DNA of 64,000 nucleotides from Bolinopsis microptera (Eukaryota > Ctenophora > Tentaculata > Lobata > Bolinopsidae). Positions 13,012 through 39,000 of this stretch are shown here, in pieces. The notes beneath the pieces are model-generated. The model was given only the letters and a program-made list of their open reading frames with translations. It was not told the origin of the DNA and did not search any database. Each line of letters opens with the position of its first letter. The stretch's first letter is position 1. The position numbers and the translations under genes are program-made. The DNA is taken from positions 5,356,483 through 5,420,482 of the forward strand of contig NC_087077.1 in NCBI RefSeq assembly GCF_026151205.1, read 5' to 3'.

Positions 13012-13953
13012 TTAAGTCGACTGGACTTCCCAGACGCAGATTTCGTTATTCGTGTAGCCGGCGTAAAGAGTTTGGCCATCTGAAGACCAAGCGAGGCAAG
13101 TGCAAGCGACGGCACCGTTGTTCGATGTGTTTTCCAATTTCTTCTCATCGACGATCTGTTTTCCTTCGAGATCCCAGATCTTGATTTGAGAGCCGGTGGC
13201 GGCACAGAGCCAGTATCTGTTGGGAGAGAAGGCGAGGGCGTTGATGGCATCACCACAGTCCAAAGTGTAGAGATGTTTGTCTGCGTTGAGATCCCACAGC
13301 ATGGTCTTGGTGTCTTGTCCACCGGAAGCAGCCAGGGAACCGTCAGGGGAGATGGTTACGGTGTTGAGGTGTCCGTTGTGACCGACATGGTTGGTCTTCA
13401 GCTTGCAGTTCTGGAGGTTCCATACCTTGACCATGTTGTCCCAGCCAGCTGAAACAAGAAGTGGGTTCTTCTGGTTAGGACTGAACCTGACACATGATAC
13501 CCATTCACTGTGACAATCTTCTTGGATTGTGTATTTACATTCGGCCAAAGTGTTCCACAGCTTGATGGTCTTGTCTCTGGATCCGGAAACGATCTGCCTG
13601 TTATCAGCGGAGAAGGCGACTGAAAGGATATCTTTCTCGTGACCCCAGAATTGACGAGTAGTTGCTCCCGTGTTGAGATCCCACAGCCTCATGGACTTGT
13701 CCCATGATCCAGACAGAGCGAACTGACCGTCTGAAGAAACAACGACGTCGGAAACGAAGTGAGAATGGCCGGTAAGGGCTCTCTTGGCGTATCCGTAGTT
13801 ATCACTACCACTTTCACCCAACTCCCACAGGATGATTGTGTGATCTCTTGACGACGAAAGGATCATGTTGGGCACTTGAGGAGTGGTTGCGATCTGTGTG
13901 ACCCAGCCATTGTGGCCCTTCAGGCTACCTTTGAGAACTAACTGCTCGGTCAT
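13012..13953 (-). CDS. RACK1: RACK1, receptor for activated C kinase (small ribosomal subunit WD40 protein)
   Basis: A 313-residue seven-bladed WD40 protein of full family length, in one uninterrupted exon. RACK1 binds the 40S subunit near the mRNA exit and scaffolds kinases, including PKC. Seven repeats are visible, with typical GH and WD positions such as [48 protein letters not shown] and [13 protein letters not shown]. The N-terminal SSSRDH segment carries R36 and D37, but the residue aligned to the ribosome-contacting K38 of other RACK1 proteins is His. The ATG is 2 nt after a pyrimidine-rich acceptor (CACTGTCCCTAG). Lack of introns could mean a retrocopy, but the intact frame and compact neighbours argue for the functional gene. 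Confidence 0.97.
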
Positions 13954-14474
13954 GTCTAGGGACAGTGATTTATTAAAATAAGAGTTGTGAAGAGAAAAAC
14001 GATATGCAATTTCAGTAAAATCAAACTAGCGCGCGCCGCGCAAAAATATAGGGCGAGAATGATAACAGGAGCCGAGAAAAACCACTACAATATTGTCCGC
14101 GCGTTACGTTTGGTCTTAAAAACGTCTGATTTGCCACGACTTTGGCAACATTTTAGAACCTTCGATCGTAATTCGGATTTAAGGTTAATCACACGAAATA
14201 AATATCACAGTAGATCAACAATACATTCCACATCAATATAGTCGTTTAAATACAACTTTGGATATGAAAATTTATTAAAATTTGTGATTATGATACTGTA
14301 CATATATAATCCACGTAAATTACAAAATAATTTCATGATATTGATATGACGTTCAAAATCGAATACTGTAGAGCTGTTATTCAAATAAGAGTTAGACAAA
14401 CACAAACCCTCAACATCTAGAAAAAAGTGCTTTCCTGGAACATCCAGCTAAAATCTAACTTGTTAAAACCAAGT
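13954..14474. other. Spacer between OXLD1-like and RACK1
   Basis: About 520 bp without a supported gene. It ends, on the minus strand, in the acceptor in front of RACK1. It may hold a promoter, a polyadenylation region or an outron. Confidence 0.4.
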
Positions 14475-19756: not shown

Positions 19757-22700
19757 CTAAAATTCTTCAGTACTAGCTATGATAAAACGTTTAATAGTAT
19801 CCAGTTCTTCTCTCTTGTTAATTGTAGGGTTCAGATTAATAATAAACATCGCTTCAAAAATCTTTCTTCTGACAGTATTGGGTTCAATTCTTAAAATATC
19901 TACTTCTAAACTGGGATTTAACCCCTCATGACAGCTCGAATAATGTATGGCAAAAGCTTGACTAACATTAGAAGGGGTAGCAGGGTAGGTAGCGTAACGT
20001 AAGTGTTCTCCTACACGAGCATGTACTTTCCTACTGGTTTCTCCAACGTACAGCTGGTCACATAATTTACACTTAATCTTATATACAACATTCTTCACTT
20101 CACAATCTTTATTACAAACTATCAAAGGACAAATTTTACATGAATTAATACTGCACACACGTTTATCATACGGTCTGTTACTACATAAAATATTTCTCAA
20201 TTTCGAAGTAGGTTTAAAGTTTACTTTAATAGGTAAATTGTTCTGCTTTACATAATTTCTAATCTTATTGCTAGTACTGTCTGAAATAAAATCTAAATTA
20301 AGAACTGTCCTGGAATCATCCTCAACACTCTGACGCCTGTTAGAATTACTACTGTTACAATAACGTCTTGGGTTCTGGTAACCGTTTTTCTGTAATAGAT
20401 CATCAAGGAGTCTGAGAGAGTGCTCCTTTTCCGCTGGACCAGATGAGATACGGCAAGCCTCGCTATATAGGTTCTTCACTGTATTAATCTTAACAGACTC
20501 AGGATGGCAAGAGTTGTTGTGCAGGGTAATATCCTTTTGTTGCGGCTTGCGGTACAATCTGCTGGTTAATTTACCGTTTGGCTCGATCCGGACCTCAGTG
20601 TTCAGGAAGGGGATAAAATCGTCCTGTTGTTCTGGAAAGTCGACCTCCCACTTCAACTTTTTGTCCGGATCTTGGTCTGCAATCTGTTGAACCAGAGCAA
20701 GGGCTTCTTCTTTCGTCTCTGCAGTACTGGCAGCATCATCTATGTAGCGTTTGTAGAAGTTCGATAAGTATACCGATAGGTAGTGTCGATCGGTGTAGAT
20801 AGAGTTCTTCTCGAACTTGTACACTCTAATGATGGCACAGAAGGGCCCTGGCCTCAAACCCATGAACAGACCATCCTGCTGTAGCCAGAGAGTCCTGTTA
20901 TACACAAAGAAAGAGTTGGTAAGGATGTGTAGTAGGATCTCATGAATGTCTGTCAGGCTGAGTCCCATCAGGTCCAAACTGTCTCGGTGCTCTGTAGCTA
21001 GCTCAATGACATCGTCTATACAGCCCTGTACGTTTATGTTAGTGTATAAAGCTGAAATATCCGCGGCAAAGAACTTTCTCCTGGCAAGCTGTTCCTGAGA
21101 GATCTGGCGGAGCATCTCTATGTATGTATGTATGTATGTATGTATTTTGACACGGGGCAGCGCTAGACCCCATGTAGTGCCCTCAACCTACTTTTAGATT
21201 TGAAGGTCATAAAGGCGACAACAATGCCAAGAGGACAGCGCAAGCCGGTGGGCTGTACACTGGGCACGTGCGCGTAATAATAGAGCTCAAACAGGTAATA
21301 GACCCCGCGAGCATATAGAATCAGGATTTTACAGGATGTGGGCAGCCGGCCCTGTGAAGGTGATGGATGCGTGCAAATCTGAGGGCTTGAAGCGAGTGTA
21401 TTGTGGAGCTAGCGTACTCTGATAAGTGAAGTAGCCCGAACCAGGTAGCTCACCTGCTCCGCATCGCGGGGGGCCGCTCCAGTTTACAGATGTACATGCG
21501 GAGATATGTCGACGCTCGTGAGTGAATGGGGAATAGCTGATTTGTGCGAAGGTAATGTGTGGGTTATGATGGTGCTGTTACTTTATAAGTTCTAAGCTTG
21601 TAGAATGTGTTGCAAAAACCATCCTAATTGAGGTTTATTGGTTGGCGTATGTAGTGAGGGTTTGACGATGAAAGAGCGCTAAGATAATTTTGGGAATGTA
21701 GTATGGGCAGTGACAGATTCAAGGTTGATGGAGATAATTAAAACAACGAATATAACTGCAATTGTAAAAAGTAATAGCAAATATTTGTAAGTGAATCTCG
21801 ATTGTTTGTGAATCCTCTTTATCGACACTAGGCAGAGTATGATGCTGAGGCAAAGTTCGGGACTGATCTGGTATCATCTTCCTTGAGTTTACTAATCAGA
21901 TCAACCTGGAGTGATGGAACGTTTCAATTATGTGGATTTGTCGTAATCTCGTGGAATAGTCGTAAGCTCGTGCGCGCGCAGGCTCGCGCGCGCACTAAAT
22001 TTTCTGTTAAAAAAATGACGACTATTAGGTTGCTACGTCCTTGAGTTGTATGGCGTTCGCGCGTTACGTTTAATGCGGGAAATTTGAAGGACGGATTTAA
22101 CTGGTTTGAGTAACTGGATTTCATTGAAGTTGTGTTTGGTGGAGCAAGGCGGTAGGTTCGTTTTTTAGGGGTGATTAGTGGGAGTGTTCTAACCTGGTGG
22201 TGGTGGAGGAACTGCTAATACCGGATGAAGGGGTACCCTGGAGGCAGTGATTGGATCTCTACTGGTTTGGAGAGTGGGAGTCCTTTATTTAGGTTGTCTG
22301 ATGAATATCTGTGTCAAGTCGTCAATCTGGAATAACTCGAGTTTTAGTAATTTATAAAGTGGGCTGTAACATTGCGTTCCAGCCCTGAGAGGGAAAATAA
22401 ACTAGTAAGAAGATGTAATTATTGGAAAATTGATGCAGATTACATTTATTGACTGATCAGAACAAGGAATAATGTTATGTGGAGTCCAACTTGTAGTTAT
22501 TCATCTCATGTGATGGTTTAGCGAAGATTTCTGGATCGGAGTAGTATGATGCGGAGCATCTCTATGTGCTGGATTAAATTACTCAGGTGACTAGGCACCT
22601 CATTAAGGAGAGGTTTAAGAATGGTCGTCACTAGCCAACTGAGTCTCTCTGTAGGTGAGTCCACGCAGCTGATGATGGGTCTAACCTTAACCTGCTCAAG

Positions 22701-23696
22701 AGGGATCGTCGAGCGGAAGCTCTCCGGAGGGTTCTTGTGGGTCTTGATTTGGACGTACATGACTGGGAGGCTGACATGGTCAGGAACTCTGATCCGTCGC
22801 TTGTAGTCGTCGTCAAGGTTCCGCTGTGATGAGATCTTCTTCCACAGGTTATTCGACTCCTTCACCAGGTTCTCCGTCTTCTTCTTGATGAGCTGTGTGA
22901 GCTGTTGAGAGGTGGGTTCCGCTACTGAGACAGTTTTACCGTTGATTTTTCTCGTGGGAAGCACACGCTGGTACACAGCTGTCTCCTGGAGGTGATTCTC
23001 TGTTAGATGCCGATGTGTGTCCTTAGTTGTCACCACAAACTCACCGCACTTGTCTGATACCGACACGTGTAACGTCCTGTTTGTCAGAAGGGAGCGTAAA
23101 CCATCTTTCTGAAAACGAGTGAGGTTATCCTGTGGGTTGGTGTTAGTCACGAGGTCCTGTACAAAGCGGTTAAACTGTGCCAGTTTGTCCTCTAAAACCG
23201 GGTGAGTGGGGTCAGGTGTACTGGTGAATGGTGAAGGAAAGGGACACAATCTCCTCACTTTGCTGGAACTCGACTCCTCGGTGGGCTCAATCGGGGCACT
23301 AACTTCCGCACTAGTGTCTGAGTTGGCACGTTGAGTGATAGCGTGTTTGTGTCTGATCTTAAACACACACTGAGCGATATCAACGGCAACTTTATCCTTG
23401 AATGACTGGTCAATTCGCGGAGACACGGCGAAGTTAGGTCCGAGAGCTAAAACTGACTTCTGCTGCTCGGAGACACTGTCGATGTTGAGAGTAGTGACTC
23501 TATCGTCAGCAGGTTGAGTAGTGGATGGAGGAGGAGGAGGAGTAGGAGGGTAGTATTTCTCCAACAACCAAGAAAACTTCTTCTGTAAACGGTCCTTATA
23601 ATGCTGCTTAACATAACGCTGGTGCACAGTGCGCCGAGGAGGCGATTTTCTGGAAAAAATCAAGTTTGTTCCACAACTCTTCATATTTTTCGTCAA
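19757..23696 (-). pseudogene. Penelope-like polyprotein: reverse transcriptase plus GIY-YIG endonuclease, interrupted
   Basis: The N-terminal part (23696-22551) has a proline-rich segment, then FQKDGLRSLL, KTHKNPPESFRS, VRPIISCVDSPTERLSWL and ends at HIEMLR. The same residues resume at MLRQISQEQLARRKFFAADI in the second part (21122-19757). This contains DISALYTNIN and the catalytic YIDD of the reverse transcriptase, the family-typical LYRKPQQKD segment, then a cysteine-rich linker and a GIY-YIG domain (VVYKIKCKLCDQLYVGETSR, RVGEHL, EAMFIINLNPTINKREE). Only the nested insertion breaks the frame; the two parts adjoin in phase across it. Penelope-type elements use this domain pair for target-primed reverse transcription. 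Confidence 0.88.
21124..22550 (-). mobile_element. 1.4 kb retroposed insertion with (ATAC)n tail inside the Penelope-like element
   Basis: GCGGAGCATCTCTATGT is present on both sides (21107-21123 and 22551-22567), a 17-bp target duplication. One end is an ATGT tandem run (about 21120-21146). Read on the minus strand this is a 3' ATAC tail after a GC-rich segment, as in L2/CR1-type LINE or SINE tails. There is no long reading frame, so it is a non-coding or 5'-chimeric retroposon. A GGTTCGGGCTAC-like stretch near 21,435-21,446 (minus strand) faintly recalls a tRNA B box. Confidence 0.75.
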
Positions 23697-23699
23697 AAA

Positions 23700-28385: not shown

Positions 28386-29446
28386 AATAGACAGTTTTTG
28401 GGTTTTTCCAAATAGTTTCTGATTATTCTGATTTGCGACAAATGATATTGCACTGTTAGGATAAACGACGTTTCAAAGTAACAACTTCTTATTCATGCTG
28501 ACAAAATTGGTAAATATGTGAGAAAACTGTCTCATAAAATTTATTAATCAAAAATGGCTAAACCGAAACGACAACAAATTGTTCAAATACTCGACTAAAA
28601 TTAGAATCAAAATCTATATGTATACAACACTACTCGATCTGCTATTCAATAAACTTAAAACATCCACTAAACAGCAAGTACGTGATTGTGATCGTGTGAT
28701 GGAATGACATGTACAGTGATAACAGATGATTTAAGATGTAAGTGATAACAGATGATAAGGTAAAAGATACAATACATGTGAGATGGTGTATACACAATGT
28801 GAGTGAAAATATAGTGAGTGGTTACTGATTGTGAGCGAGATGTGAAAAAACATTAAAACTTACTACTGCTAGAAAACTTAAACTGTATGCAATAAAAAGG
28901 GAATGAAACTAAAATATCTAAAATTCTTCAGTACTAGCTATGATAAAACGTTTAATAGTATCCAGTTCTTCTCTCTTGTTAATTGTAGGGTTCAGATTAA
29001 TAATAAACATCGCTTCAAAAATCTTTCTTCTGACAGTATTGGGTTCAATTCTTAAAATATCTACTTCTAAACTGGGATTTAACCCCTCATGACAGCTCGA
29101 ATAATGTATGGCAAAAGCTTGACTAACATTAGAAGGGGTAGCAGGGTAGGTAGCGTAACGTAAGTGTTCTCCTACACGAGCATGTACTTTCCTACTGGTT
29201 TCTCCAACGTACAGCTGGTCACATAATTTACACTTAATCTTATATACAACATTCTTCACTTCACAATCTTTATTACAAACTATCAAAGGACAAATTTTAC
29301 ATGAATTAATACTGCACACACGTTTATCATACGGTCTGTTACTACATAAAATATTTCTCAATTTCGAAGTAGGTTTAAAGTTTACTTTAATAGGTAAATT
29401 GTTCTGCTTTACATAATTTCTAATCTTATTGCTAGTACTAACTAAT
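28386..29446 (-). mobile_element. 5'-truncated Penelope-like copy
   Basis: Nearly identical to 19219-20276 (I noted only two substitutions, in the 3' non-coding part). It begins mid-ORF at about 29446 (TAGTACT junction) and ends at AATAGACAG. The right flank starts AACTAATATAAC, the same 12 bases that lie left of the other copy at 19213-19224, bridging its boundary. Confidence 0.85.
28918..29446 (-). pseudogene. Penelope GIY-YIG endonuclease domain, truncated copy
   Basis: Encodes STSNKIRNYVKQNNLPIK through the GIY-YIG domain to the same FIIASTEEF end as the longer copy, with identical residues where they overlap. It lacks all of the reverse transcriptase and any start codon of its own. Confidence 0.85.
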
Positions 29447-29858
29447 ATAACGTTTACAAATTTTAGCAATCTTATACAGGTTGAATTAATCGATTAATCC
29501 ATTTTTTGAATATGGTCAACTCAATAATTTGCTGAACTCAAGTATTTGTGAGCAAAAAATGAAACTGGACTAGTGAAGAATAAGTTTTAAAGGTGTCACT
29601 GCGAGATACAGAGAAAACGATCATATGCACTTACAGGAGAAAATAATTAGACAGCTTAAATGCTCCTAGTTGCGAGTCACAATTTCAAAGGTCAGTGGTG
29701 CAAGCGAGAACATAAATGATGGTATAAAACAAACTTCAACGAGAGAGCTATGGTAGCCCATTTTTAATGGACTAAAATTGCTTACTGTTCAAAACTTGTA
29801 CAAATACCACTGTATATCTGAGATATTTCGAATTATGAAATTTCGCACTCCATACTAG

Positions 29859-36095: not shown

Positions 36096-39000
36096 CTAAT
36101 TCTCCTTGCATCTGTTCATCATCATCCTGATAAAGTCTGATCTGGTCAGTCGGCCCTCTCCCCGTCTGTCTCCTCGTTTCATGAGATCGTCCAGACCCTC
36201 CTCTGATACAGGGTGGGCCAGGCTAAGCATCACCTGCCTCAAAACGTCCTGAAAATAACGGCAAATCAGACTCAACATTACTTGCCTCAAAACGTCCTGA
36301 AAATAACGGCAAATCAGACTCAACATCACTTGCCTCAAAACGTCCTGAAAATAACGGTAAATCAGACTCAGCATCACTTCCCTCAAAACGTCCTGAAAAT
36401 AACGGCAAATCAGACTCAGCATCACTTGCCTCAAAACGTCCTGAAAATAACGGCAAATCAGACTCAGCATCACTTGCCTCAAAACGTCCTGAAAATAACG
36501 GTAAATCAGACACCATCACTTGCCTCAAAACGTCCTGAAAATAACGGCAAATCAGACTCAGCATCACTTGCCTCAAAACGTCCTGAAAATAACGGTAAAT
36601 CAGACTCAGCATCACTTGCCTCAAAACGTCCTGAAAATAACGGTAAATCAGACTCAGCATCACTTCCCTCAAAACGTCCTGAAAATAACGGTAAATCAGA
36701 CTCAGCATCACTTGCCTCAAAACGTCCTGAAAATAACGGGAAATCAGACTCAGCATCACTTGCCTCAAAACGTCCTGAAAATAACGGCAAATCAAAACTA
36801 GTTACTGTTTTGTGTTTTGTAGTATTAATATTATACGGTCAATGTTATTAATATTATAAGATAAGATATTGTAAGATATAGAAAGACATAGAATGTGGTT
36901 ATGCAATCATAAGCTATAAGTATAGAAAGAAAAAAAAGCTACACTCAAGGCTTTCACAAAGTTTCAGTTGAATCGTCCTAGATAAAATATAAAGACACCT
37001 TATATTAAGTTATTGAATGGTGACGAGTTATAAATAAAAGCGCATACCCTAGTGATAAAGCCACTATGGCCTTTGTCAAAGATGCGGAAGATATCTTCAA
37101 GTTGAGACTCTGGGGTAATAAGTGGATTCTGCTGAAGACTCATCATTCTGATAAACTCGCATATGTCAATGATACCGTCATTATTAATATCAACTTTGGA
37201 TACCATTACCTGTGGAAGGATGATGTTGAAATTATGGTAAAATTATGGTAAAATTATGGTGAAATAATAGATTATGGTGAAATAATAAAGCGACTTCCAT
37301 TCAAATTGCTATACTTGTACTTTTGTTGTTTTACGAATAAAAGTTCAGATCTAAAGTGCTACCTCTACTTCTTCGGGGCTTGGTTTCAGACCAATGCTGT
37401 CTAATACGTCTGGAAGTTCGTCAACTGTGATGATACCTATATAAATAGATAAAATAAGCTTAGGTTAAATGAATTAAGCCTAAAACTGAACGTAGCAATT
37501 TGCAATAGGTTGCAACCTGGATGTGATCATCAAAAATTGTATTGTTTTATAAGCATTATTCTGTGCTTTTCGGTGAAAGTGCATTATATCGAATATCGAT
37601 ACTATCAACTTATTTGTTACTGGGCGGCGTTCATCCTGTCATTCCGCCGAATCTCTATTCGGTTGTTTATGAACATGATAACCTGGGGTCCCCAGATAAC
37701 TTATTTGTGGTATTTGTGGTATTTGTGGTATTTGTGGTATTTGTGGTATTTGTGGTATTTGTGGTATTTGTGGTATTTGTGGTATAGTATGAATATCTAT
37801 CAGTATCTGTTTAACATCCCGCCAGCTTACCATCTCCATTTTGATCGAAGTCTTTGAATGCTTGTTCGTACTCCTGGATCTCGTGCCAATCCAGACTGAC
37901 GGGTATTGGCAACGGTCTCTCTCCATTGTTATCTGAAATTAATCACAATCAATAAATCAAGTAAGGTTAAAGATATTGGGTTCCGTCTAGACGACCAGAG
38001 GCAAATACGCGGATCAGAATTAACTAGATCTCTGTGAGCCATTGTGGACATGGTTAGCATGGTCACAGATCACGATTATTATACTAATTTGATACTGGGA
38101 TTAGTGTCATCTTCCATAATCATGAAACCAACGACAAACCACAGGATCTGGTAGTGGTAAACATTTCAGATAGAAATACCGTTTCTATGACCAAGATTAA
38201 AAGCTCTGCTTGATAAAAGTAATTGTATCAAGTAAAACCGGATTAAACTGCATTAAATTCAAACGGAGCAAACTTACAAATTTTAAGCCTCACAAGAGAT
38301 TTATAAAGTCCGCGAGTTTCGCACAAATGATACCGACATTCAGAATAATTTCTGGGTGATCGACTGCATGATAAGCCCATTTATATTTATCAGAAATAAA
38401 AGAAGCAAACGGAATGGTATAATTTTGTGAATACGCAAGGTTCACACATTGGATCCATTTATTAGGCTAAGATCAGGAGACCCGTGTACCAGGGGTGTAG
38501 GAATGATTTTCTTCATGGGGGAGGGGGGGGGGGGGGGCAATTCTAAATTTTTTGGAGCTTCGCGCCACAGCCTGGATTTGTTGGCGGACATGCAACAGAT
38601 CACGATTATTATACTAATTTGAGACTGGGATTAGTGTCATCTTCCATAATCATGAAACCAACTTCAAAACACAGGATCTGGTAGTGGTAAACATTTCAAA
38701 TAAAAAATACCGTTTCTTTGACCAAGATTAAAAGCTCTGCTTGATAAAAGTAATTGTATCAAGTAAAACCGGATTAAACTGCATTAAATTCAAACGGAGC
38801 AAACTTACAAATTTTTAGCCTCACAAGAGATTTATAAAGTCCGCGAGTTTTTCACAGCCTGGATTTGTTGGCGGACATGCAACAGATCACGATTATTATA
38901 CTAATATGAGACTGGGATTAGTCCTGTCATCTTAAACCATATAACTAATAACGTAAATCATGAAACCAACGACAAACCACAAGATTTGCAGTAGTGGTAA

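Follow-up and report, generated by a model that had tools for sequence, protein, structure and literature searches.

Tandemly repeated splice junctions in an EF-hand gene and other conserved genes of the ctenophore Bolinopsis microptera

Human segmental duplications have been reported to contain minisatellites that lie across exon-intron boundaries (De Grassi and Ciccarelli 2009, PMC2812944). To go by the parts of that paper drawn on here, the human minisatellites share this position with the arrays described below, and they vary in repeat number and are able to alter splicing; they concern recent human paralogues for which variation and transcripts were examined, whereas the Bolinopsis arrays contain up to about 79 repeated splice sites, lie in conserved genes and are known from sequence alone. 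Introns are also recognised to originate by tandem duplication at splice-like words (2010, PMC2891723), and the sections of that paper used here describe a small tandem duplication at a splice-like word much like ours, with the difference that no new intron results in the Bolinopsis case. In C. elegans, CeRep25B and other intronic minisatellites occur near alternative exons (PMC4039745), which likewise places an intronic minisatellite beside a splicing decision, although a junction within the repeat unit is not described in the portion of that report consulted. Judged by titles and the starts of abstracts, none of the open-licence PMC matches listed describes splice sites arrayed by the tens in conserved genes.

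The array that we describe lies in the window, by which we mean the whole stretch of 64,000 nucleotides analysed (C6:5356483-5420482; the genome comprises 232 contigs that total 264,652,675 bases); positions given without a contig name refer to it. At 36219-36794, TRF reports a repeat with a period of 48 bp, 12.0 copies, 95% match and a score of 1033, which is not a chance pattern. Cutting the units at TTTTCAG on the minus strand yields 12 acceptors within 36249-36794, confirming the acceptor array that the preliminary description had claimed for the boundary of intron 5 and exon 6. Their last intron bases lie at 36775, 36727, 36679, 36631, 36583, 36535, 36489, 36441, 36393, 36345, 36297 and 36249, a spacing of 48 bp throughout save for one 46-bp unit (36489-36534, minus strand), so that exon 6 is preceded by ten units of 48 bp and one of 46 bp. 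The consensus unit joins 30 nt from the start of exon 6 (GACGTTTTGAGGCAAGTGATGCTGAGTCTG, with the exon frame taken from paralogues) to 18 nt from the end of the intron (ATTTGCCGTTATTTTCAG), and it holds intron sequence, exon sequence and the junction itself; its head-to-tail copies are of the class of about 10-100 bp that characterises minisatellites. Exon 6 reads GACGTTTTGAGGCAGGTGATGCTTAGCCTG in the genome, followed by GCCCAC. At all 12 acceptors TTATTTTCAG is kept, and the word CTGAT, which we take to be branch-point-like, is present in every one of the 11 units that precede exon 6, with TTGAT before the farthest acceptor. A two-unit query against the genome returned four reported matches, all inside the array, a missing match elsewhere being no proof of absence. 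The units also contain a GC-type donor word (GAG/GCAAGT, the slash marking the junction), which we rejected as a source of micro-exons, given that it would require a 37-nt intron and has no support.

The four exons read in the host gene (37932-37831, 37436-37363, 37209-37048 and 36248-36099, minus strand) join into a four-EF-hand protein. The first of them, which begins EF-hand 1 and ends at a phase-1 donor (GAT-G/gtaagc), was placed by similarity to paralogues on contig C9, with its 5' end set by eye at aatttcag; exon 4 (tatag/GTATCA to GTAGAG/gtagca) completes EF-hand 1; exon 5 (ccacag/GTAATG to ACTAGG/gtatgc), which is covered by a protein search match, encodes EF-hand 2 together with the greater part of the EF-hand 3 loop; and exon 6, with 50 codons ahead of a TAG stop at 36098-36096, encodes the end of that loop, its F helix and EF-hand 4. 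Given use of the exon-proximal acceptor, intron 5 would span 36249-37047. Paralogue similarity suggests a further upstream exon near 41800-41690, placed by eye. Paired EF-hands are recognised by Pfam (PF13499, EF-hand_7, E 1.7e-21), and the best PDB matches of the protein are a calmodulin chimera and calmodulins. Loops 3 and 4 (DKGHSGFITRDV and DRRGEGRLTRSD) are presumably non-canonical by EF-hand rules, and the insert site is therefore not an obvious calcium-sensing one. Other repeats were seen in introns of this gene: 9.3 copies of TATTTGTGG at 37702-37785 (100% match, TRF), in the intron that follows the 37932-37831 exon, and, by eye, similar copies of ~240 bp at 38080-38320 and 38600-38840, both within one intron.

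Six acceptors (36249, 36297, 36345, 36393, 36441 and 36489) are in frame and free of stops, with inserts of 0, 16, 32, 48, 64 and 80 residues respectively, exactly as had been claimed. The six farther acceptors (36535 to 36775) are shifted in frame by the 46-bp unit, and from them the frame ends at a TAG in exon 6; the 2-bp deletion said to bar their in-frame use is thus real. The unit peptide is DVLRQVMLSL (DVLREVMLSL in two units) followed by ICRYFQ (five units), IYRYFQ (four) or ISRYFQ (one), and the 16 stop-free codons attributed to every unit are present in ten of the 11 units that precede exon 6, the 46-bp unit being the exception. This openness is weak evidence of coding, since a second frame of the unit is likewise open (GRFEASDAESDLPLFS), one third of unit lengths keep the frame, and a run of six intron codons is often stop-free by luck. 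The added residues had been placed inside EF-hand 3; each included unit, however, supplies its own DVLRQVMLSL, such that, on a reading of the sequence, the EF-hand 3 loop and its F helix remain whole, EF-hand 3 is left unbroken, and the segment ahead of EF-hand 4 is what becomes longer. Modelled with AlphaFold2 from a single sequence, the five in-frame units together with exon 6 (minus its last codon) form one helix (residues 2-91) with a mean pLDDT of 85 and a pTM of 0.42, which makes a longer helix plausible and goes no further than that. Longer isoforms may exist, and would be at most minor.

At least eight further arrays in the genome repeat a splice junction, at acceptors and at donors, with units of 20 to 47 bp. 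An EF-hand paralogue of the host gene on C12 carries two, one at an acceptor (37 bp, 12.1 copies, each reading TT(C/T)CAG/GA) and one at a donor, which is present three times. A myosin donor on C2 is repeated as 22.1 copies of 40 bp with 100% match, after ...GSGKSTALHYIVHYYAQ. Another, at an acceptor on C3, consists of a 47-bp unit extending over about 3.7 kb (a length that corresponds to about 79 units, with the middle known from pattern matches only), and a query that joined the array-adjoining exon to a neighbouring open stretch matches MFS_1 (Pfam, E 1.1e-8). An acceptor on C10 (L078), whose adjoining exon matches Aa_trans (E 1.4e-13), has a 44-bp unit made of 36 exon nt and TTTTTCAG over at least 3.1 kb (a length that corresponds to about 70 units, including a ~0.5 kb stretch unmatched by the pattern). 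Three more donors complete the set: one with a 35-bp unit after position 45 of 57 of a homeodomain (E 3.2e-13), one with a 29-bp unit after the WD40 exon of a MABP1/WDR62-like gene (E 6.2e-5, below Pfam's own cut-off), and one on C4 (L029) with a 20-bp unit that includes hardly any exon, after a weakly matched exon (E 0.12).

Some related repeats were noted alongside these. A second array of the MFS-type 47-bp acceptor unit occurs at C3:10725660-10727363 and beyond, about 203 kb from the first. The donor-array myosin gene has a G-rich array in a later intron (L024 2022-3161, C2; about 41 bp x 29), which was set aside as a junction array because it is intronic. At L033 592-961 (C8:7268791-7269160) ten copies of a 37-bp unit (TTATTTCAG/GTAAGTAG) place an acceptor directly before a donor, a unit that resembles a repeated ratchet point of stepwise splicing; no exon was seen beside it. 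A donor-word array of about 41 bp after a 39-codon open frame (L030, C4:3729500-3730300) may be another junction array.

In the frame of the adjoining exon, alternative junctions that keep an open frame number five of 11 in the host array and one of five examined in the MFS array, against 0 of 11 for the C12 acceptor, 0 of 2 examined for the amino-acid transporter, 0 of 21 for myosin, 0 of 2 examined for the homeobox gene, 0 of 6 for the WDR62-like gene, 0 of 7 for the C4 donor and 0 of 2 for the C12 donor. Across the eight other arrays, 55 of the 56 extra junctions examined are frame-shifted or stopped (from all 11 upstream acceptors of the C12 array a stop is reached after 4 or 6 codons), which implies that these genes work only if the junction giving the shortest exon is spliced, namely the one adjoining the body of the exon, which is the last in an acceptor array and the first in a donor array. 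Treated in the same way, the host gene would be spliced at 36249. Moreover, since the other units range from 20 to 47 bp without regard to frame, the 48 bp of the host unit can be viewed as one draw among nine.

C9 carries a tandem pair of close intronless paralogues, with protein identities of 86% and 83%, and both run through the junction position without an insert. Over 450 coding nt, dN between the host gene and these copies is 0.08 and 0.10 while synonymous sites are saturated (about 88 synonymous sites with 84.0 and 80.2 differences, and about 362 non-synonymous sites with 27.0 and 33.8). Within exon 6, synonymous differences number 30.0 for the first copy and 28.8 for the second, against 7.0 and 8.2 non-synonymous ones; the exon is therefore constrained past the early TAG that the shifted frame would meet, which requires that splicing mainly use an in-frame acceptor. 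Compared with the consensus unit over their shared 30 nt, exon 6 shows three differences, all synonymous, and at each of the three codons the paralogues match the array at the third base (CAA, TTG, AGT), so it seems to be the exon that has changed since the array began, few as these sites are; an array age based on them was abandoned for that reason. In the array itself one unit is 46 bp long, two carry a Gln-to-Glu change and Cys/Tyr/Ser variation occurs, and these frame-breaking and non-synonymous variants leave no sign of coding constraint within it. Constraint is thus seen on exon 6 and not on the array units, as far as sequence comparison can tell. Given that the C9 paralogues may predate the array, their clean junction is uninformative about how the present array is spliced.

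New introns reportedly arise from tandem arrays, as is said to have been proposed by Zhuo et al. in PNAS in 2007, and that process resembles ours in involving tandem repeats that contain splice signals; here, however, it is the acceptor of an old, paralogue-shared intron that is repeated. Host intron 5 has a counterpart at the same residue in the C12 paralogue (54% identity over the matched exon), and was consequently not newly gained from a tandem array. That two genes sharing one intron both have acceptor arrays suggests more than a single chance event. The C9 copies lack several introns at once; their locus (L007, C9:6042500-6047500) holds them in tandem with frames intact and with TTTCAG just upstream of the similarity in each, and they look as though copied from spliced RNA and then duplicated. 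EF-hand matches listed in the genome lie on C1-C13, and EF-hand frames of about 205-275 residues are clustered in tandem at C13:11082760-11094295, C5:17013039-17026356, C1:21999721-22006881 and C3:3415799-3427318, spaced about 0.94-1.03 kb apart except for some larger gaps; we assume that these are akin to ctenophore photoprotein clusters.

The frequency of junction arrays was gauged in two gene families taken regardless of repeats, in which match ends are not always exact junctions. Myosin heads contributed 72 of 73 matches (93,915 bases, 136 internal edges), and protein kinases 45 of 136 matches, from 40 regions selected for being divided among exons (51,814 bases, 63 internal edges). A clear junction array was found at one of the 136 myosin edges (the 22.1-copy donor), together with a borderline one (L019, 2.2 copies, with GTTAGTAA from the intron side of a myosin donor twice and no more than about one exon base in each unit), and at none of the 63 kinase edges. 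With 45 distinct arrays of period 15 or more in the myosin regions and 15 in the kinase regions, and a founding-unit chance per point of 0.011 and 0.0068, the total of one clear and one borderline case among 199 edges compares with about 1.9 expected by random placement. Several arrays near these edges were discarded on the ground that the junction is not repeated: L018, beside or inside the intron near a myosin acceptor; L012, similarly placed at two places (one in a poor match); and L067, L054, L065, L047, L011, L021, L010 and L014, near kinase or myosin edges.

Genome-wide, we searched for splice-site words occurring three times, using the reversed word as the comparison and counting matches, of which one array may give many. 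The donor word CAGGTAAGT gave 443 triplets against 0 reversed (singles 2463 against 1212), the acceptor word TTTTCAGG, at gaps of 30-58 nt, 368 against 93 (singles 21700 against 8941) and the acceptor word TTTTCAGA 208 against 99; such counts are only a hint, the matches not being independent arrays and the loci being drawn from the first 100 or so. The first 100 of the 443 donor-word matches fall into 10 loci, three of which (L036, L031, L029) directly follow what is clearly or probably an exon. Two more (L030 and L035) are doubtful, with open frames of 39 and 34 codons that have no Pfam match, L033 is the AG/GT array already mentioned, in which no exon is seen, and L032 and L034 show none either; the sequence opened stops short of the exon side in L028 and L037, and of the end of L083. 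One of eight TTTTCAGA arrays opened (L078) and one of two TTTTCAGG loci (MFS) adjoin an exon, the former a recognised one, and the open stretches that follow L080 and L084 gave no Pfam match.

We consider it probable that the host array is a minisatellite seeded on a splice junction of a constrained gene that is spliced at 36249, with the array passed over and an ordinary four-EF-hand protein made. A 48-bp tandem duplication across the boundary of intron 5 and exon 6, perhaps joined at 2 bp of shared sequence, would have begun it, and ordinary minisatellite turnover would have taken it to 12 copies, every one with a 3' splice site sequence. Exon 5 would be joined to exon 6 at the acceptor of the shortest exon, the other five in-frame acceptors being used at most to a minor degree, and the 16-codon unit and its open frame would be luck. 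The array would then be neutral, and one case of a class of minisatellites that started by chance on junctions and are tolerated as the outermost junction is used. Against luck it must be said that the host array is the very one that allows many in-frame products. The proposal that it forms a "machine for length variation of a calcium sensor", in which all six in-frame acceptors are used to add 0 to 80 residues and unit number differs between animals, nevertheless appears unlikely. The six acceptors are in frame and open, their surroundings are the same but for one intron position with few exon-side differences, TTATTTTCAG has been retained throughout, and the single modelled helix could allow the insert to be tolerated as a longer one; yet single-sequence models of repeats often come out helical, sister arrays do not keep the frame, the array includes a frame-breaking unit and non-synonymous changes, exon 6 is what is constrained, and the intronless paralogues have no insert.

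The acceptors from 36535 to 36775 might at times be used as a truncation switch, giving EF-hands 1-3 and a repeat tail that ends at the TAG in exon 6, and if exon 6 is the last exon such a product would escape decay; the frame is open through the remaining array and stops only in exon 6 (as displayed in full for the two nearest of these six acceptors), but constraint on exon 6 beyond that TAG excludes this as the main product, there is no evidence of regulation, and we regard the switch as very unlikely. Still less credence is due to a misassembled array or a pseudogene, which the frame-breaking unit might evoke, considering that none of the four exons read is disrupted, that they have splice sites and encode a conserved protein, that the units differ by small variants, and that similar arrays occur in several unrelated genes. 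More room, though not much, is left for the idea that junctions are favoured birthplaces of minisatellites, in which short homology between splice-site words and the nearby exon seeds tandem duplications. The donor-word excess would fit, as would the myosin array, whose 22 units plus 5 nt are consistent with a shared CCTTC, and the homeobox donor, whose TAAGT recurs in the exon one unit upstream; however, those donor matches collapse into few loci, the acceptor words show little, and the exon sample fits chance, which makes this account improbable at present.

Chance seeding followed by use of the outermost junction remains our preferred reading, and its extension to a wide class, in which conserved genes have junctions copied 10 to 80 times and splicing picks the one of the shortest exon, is put forward tentatively, as something we would sooner doubt than assume. 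If true, it would supply natural and repeated evidence, in an early-branching animal, that exon definition sets splice-site choice, and the host array would be the rare case whose rejected sites would also make protein. Choice among equal splice sites has mostly been studied with engineered constructs. Where 12, 22 or about 79 near-identical junctions follow one another next to the conserved exon of a natural gene, position must largely decide, and transcripts would show which site wins, be it the first made, the one nearest the branch point or that of the shortest exon, as well as how much error leaks through; in the host gene, such leakage would appear in steps of 16 residues. The class deserves transcript study more than the single case does.

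Elsewhere in the window, long open frames occur on the minus strand at 19760-21187, 22521-23699 and 28921-29493, the last of which repeats the end of the first; they look like pieces of reverse-transcriptase/endonuclease elements. A single-exon open frame of 337 codons with WD repeats, presumably RACK1-like, lies at 13015-14025 on the minus strand.
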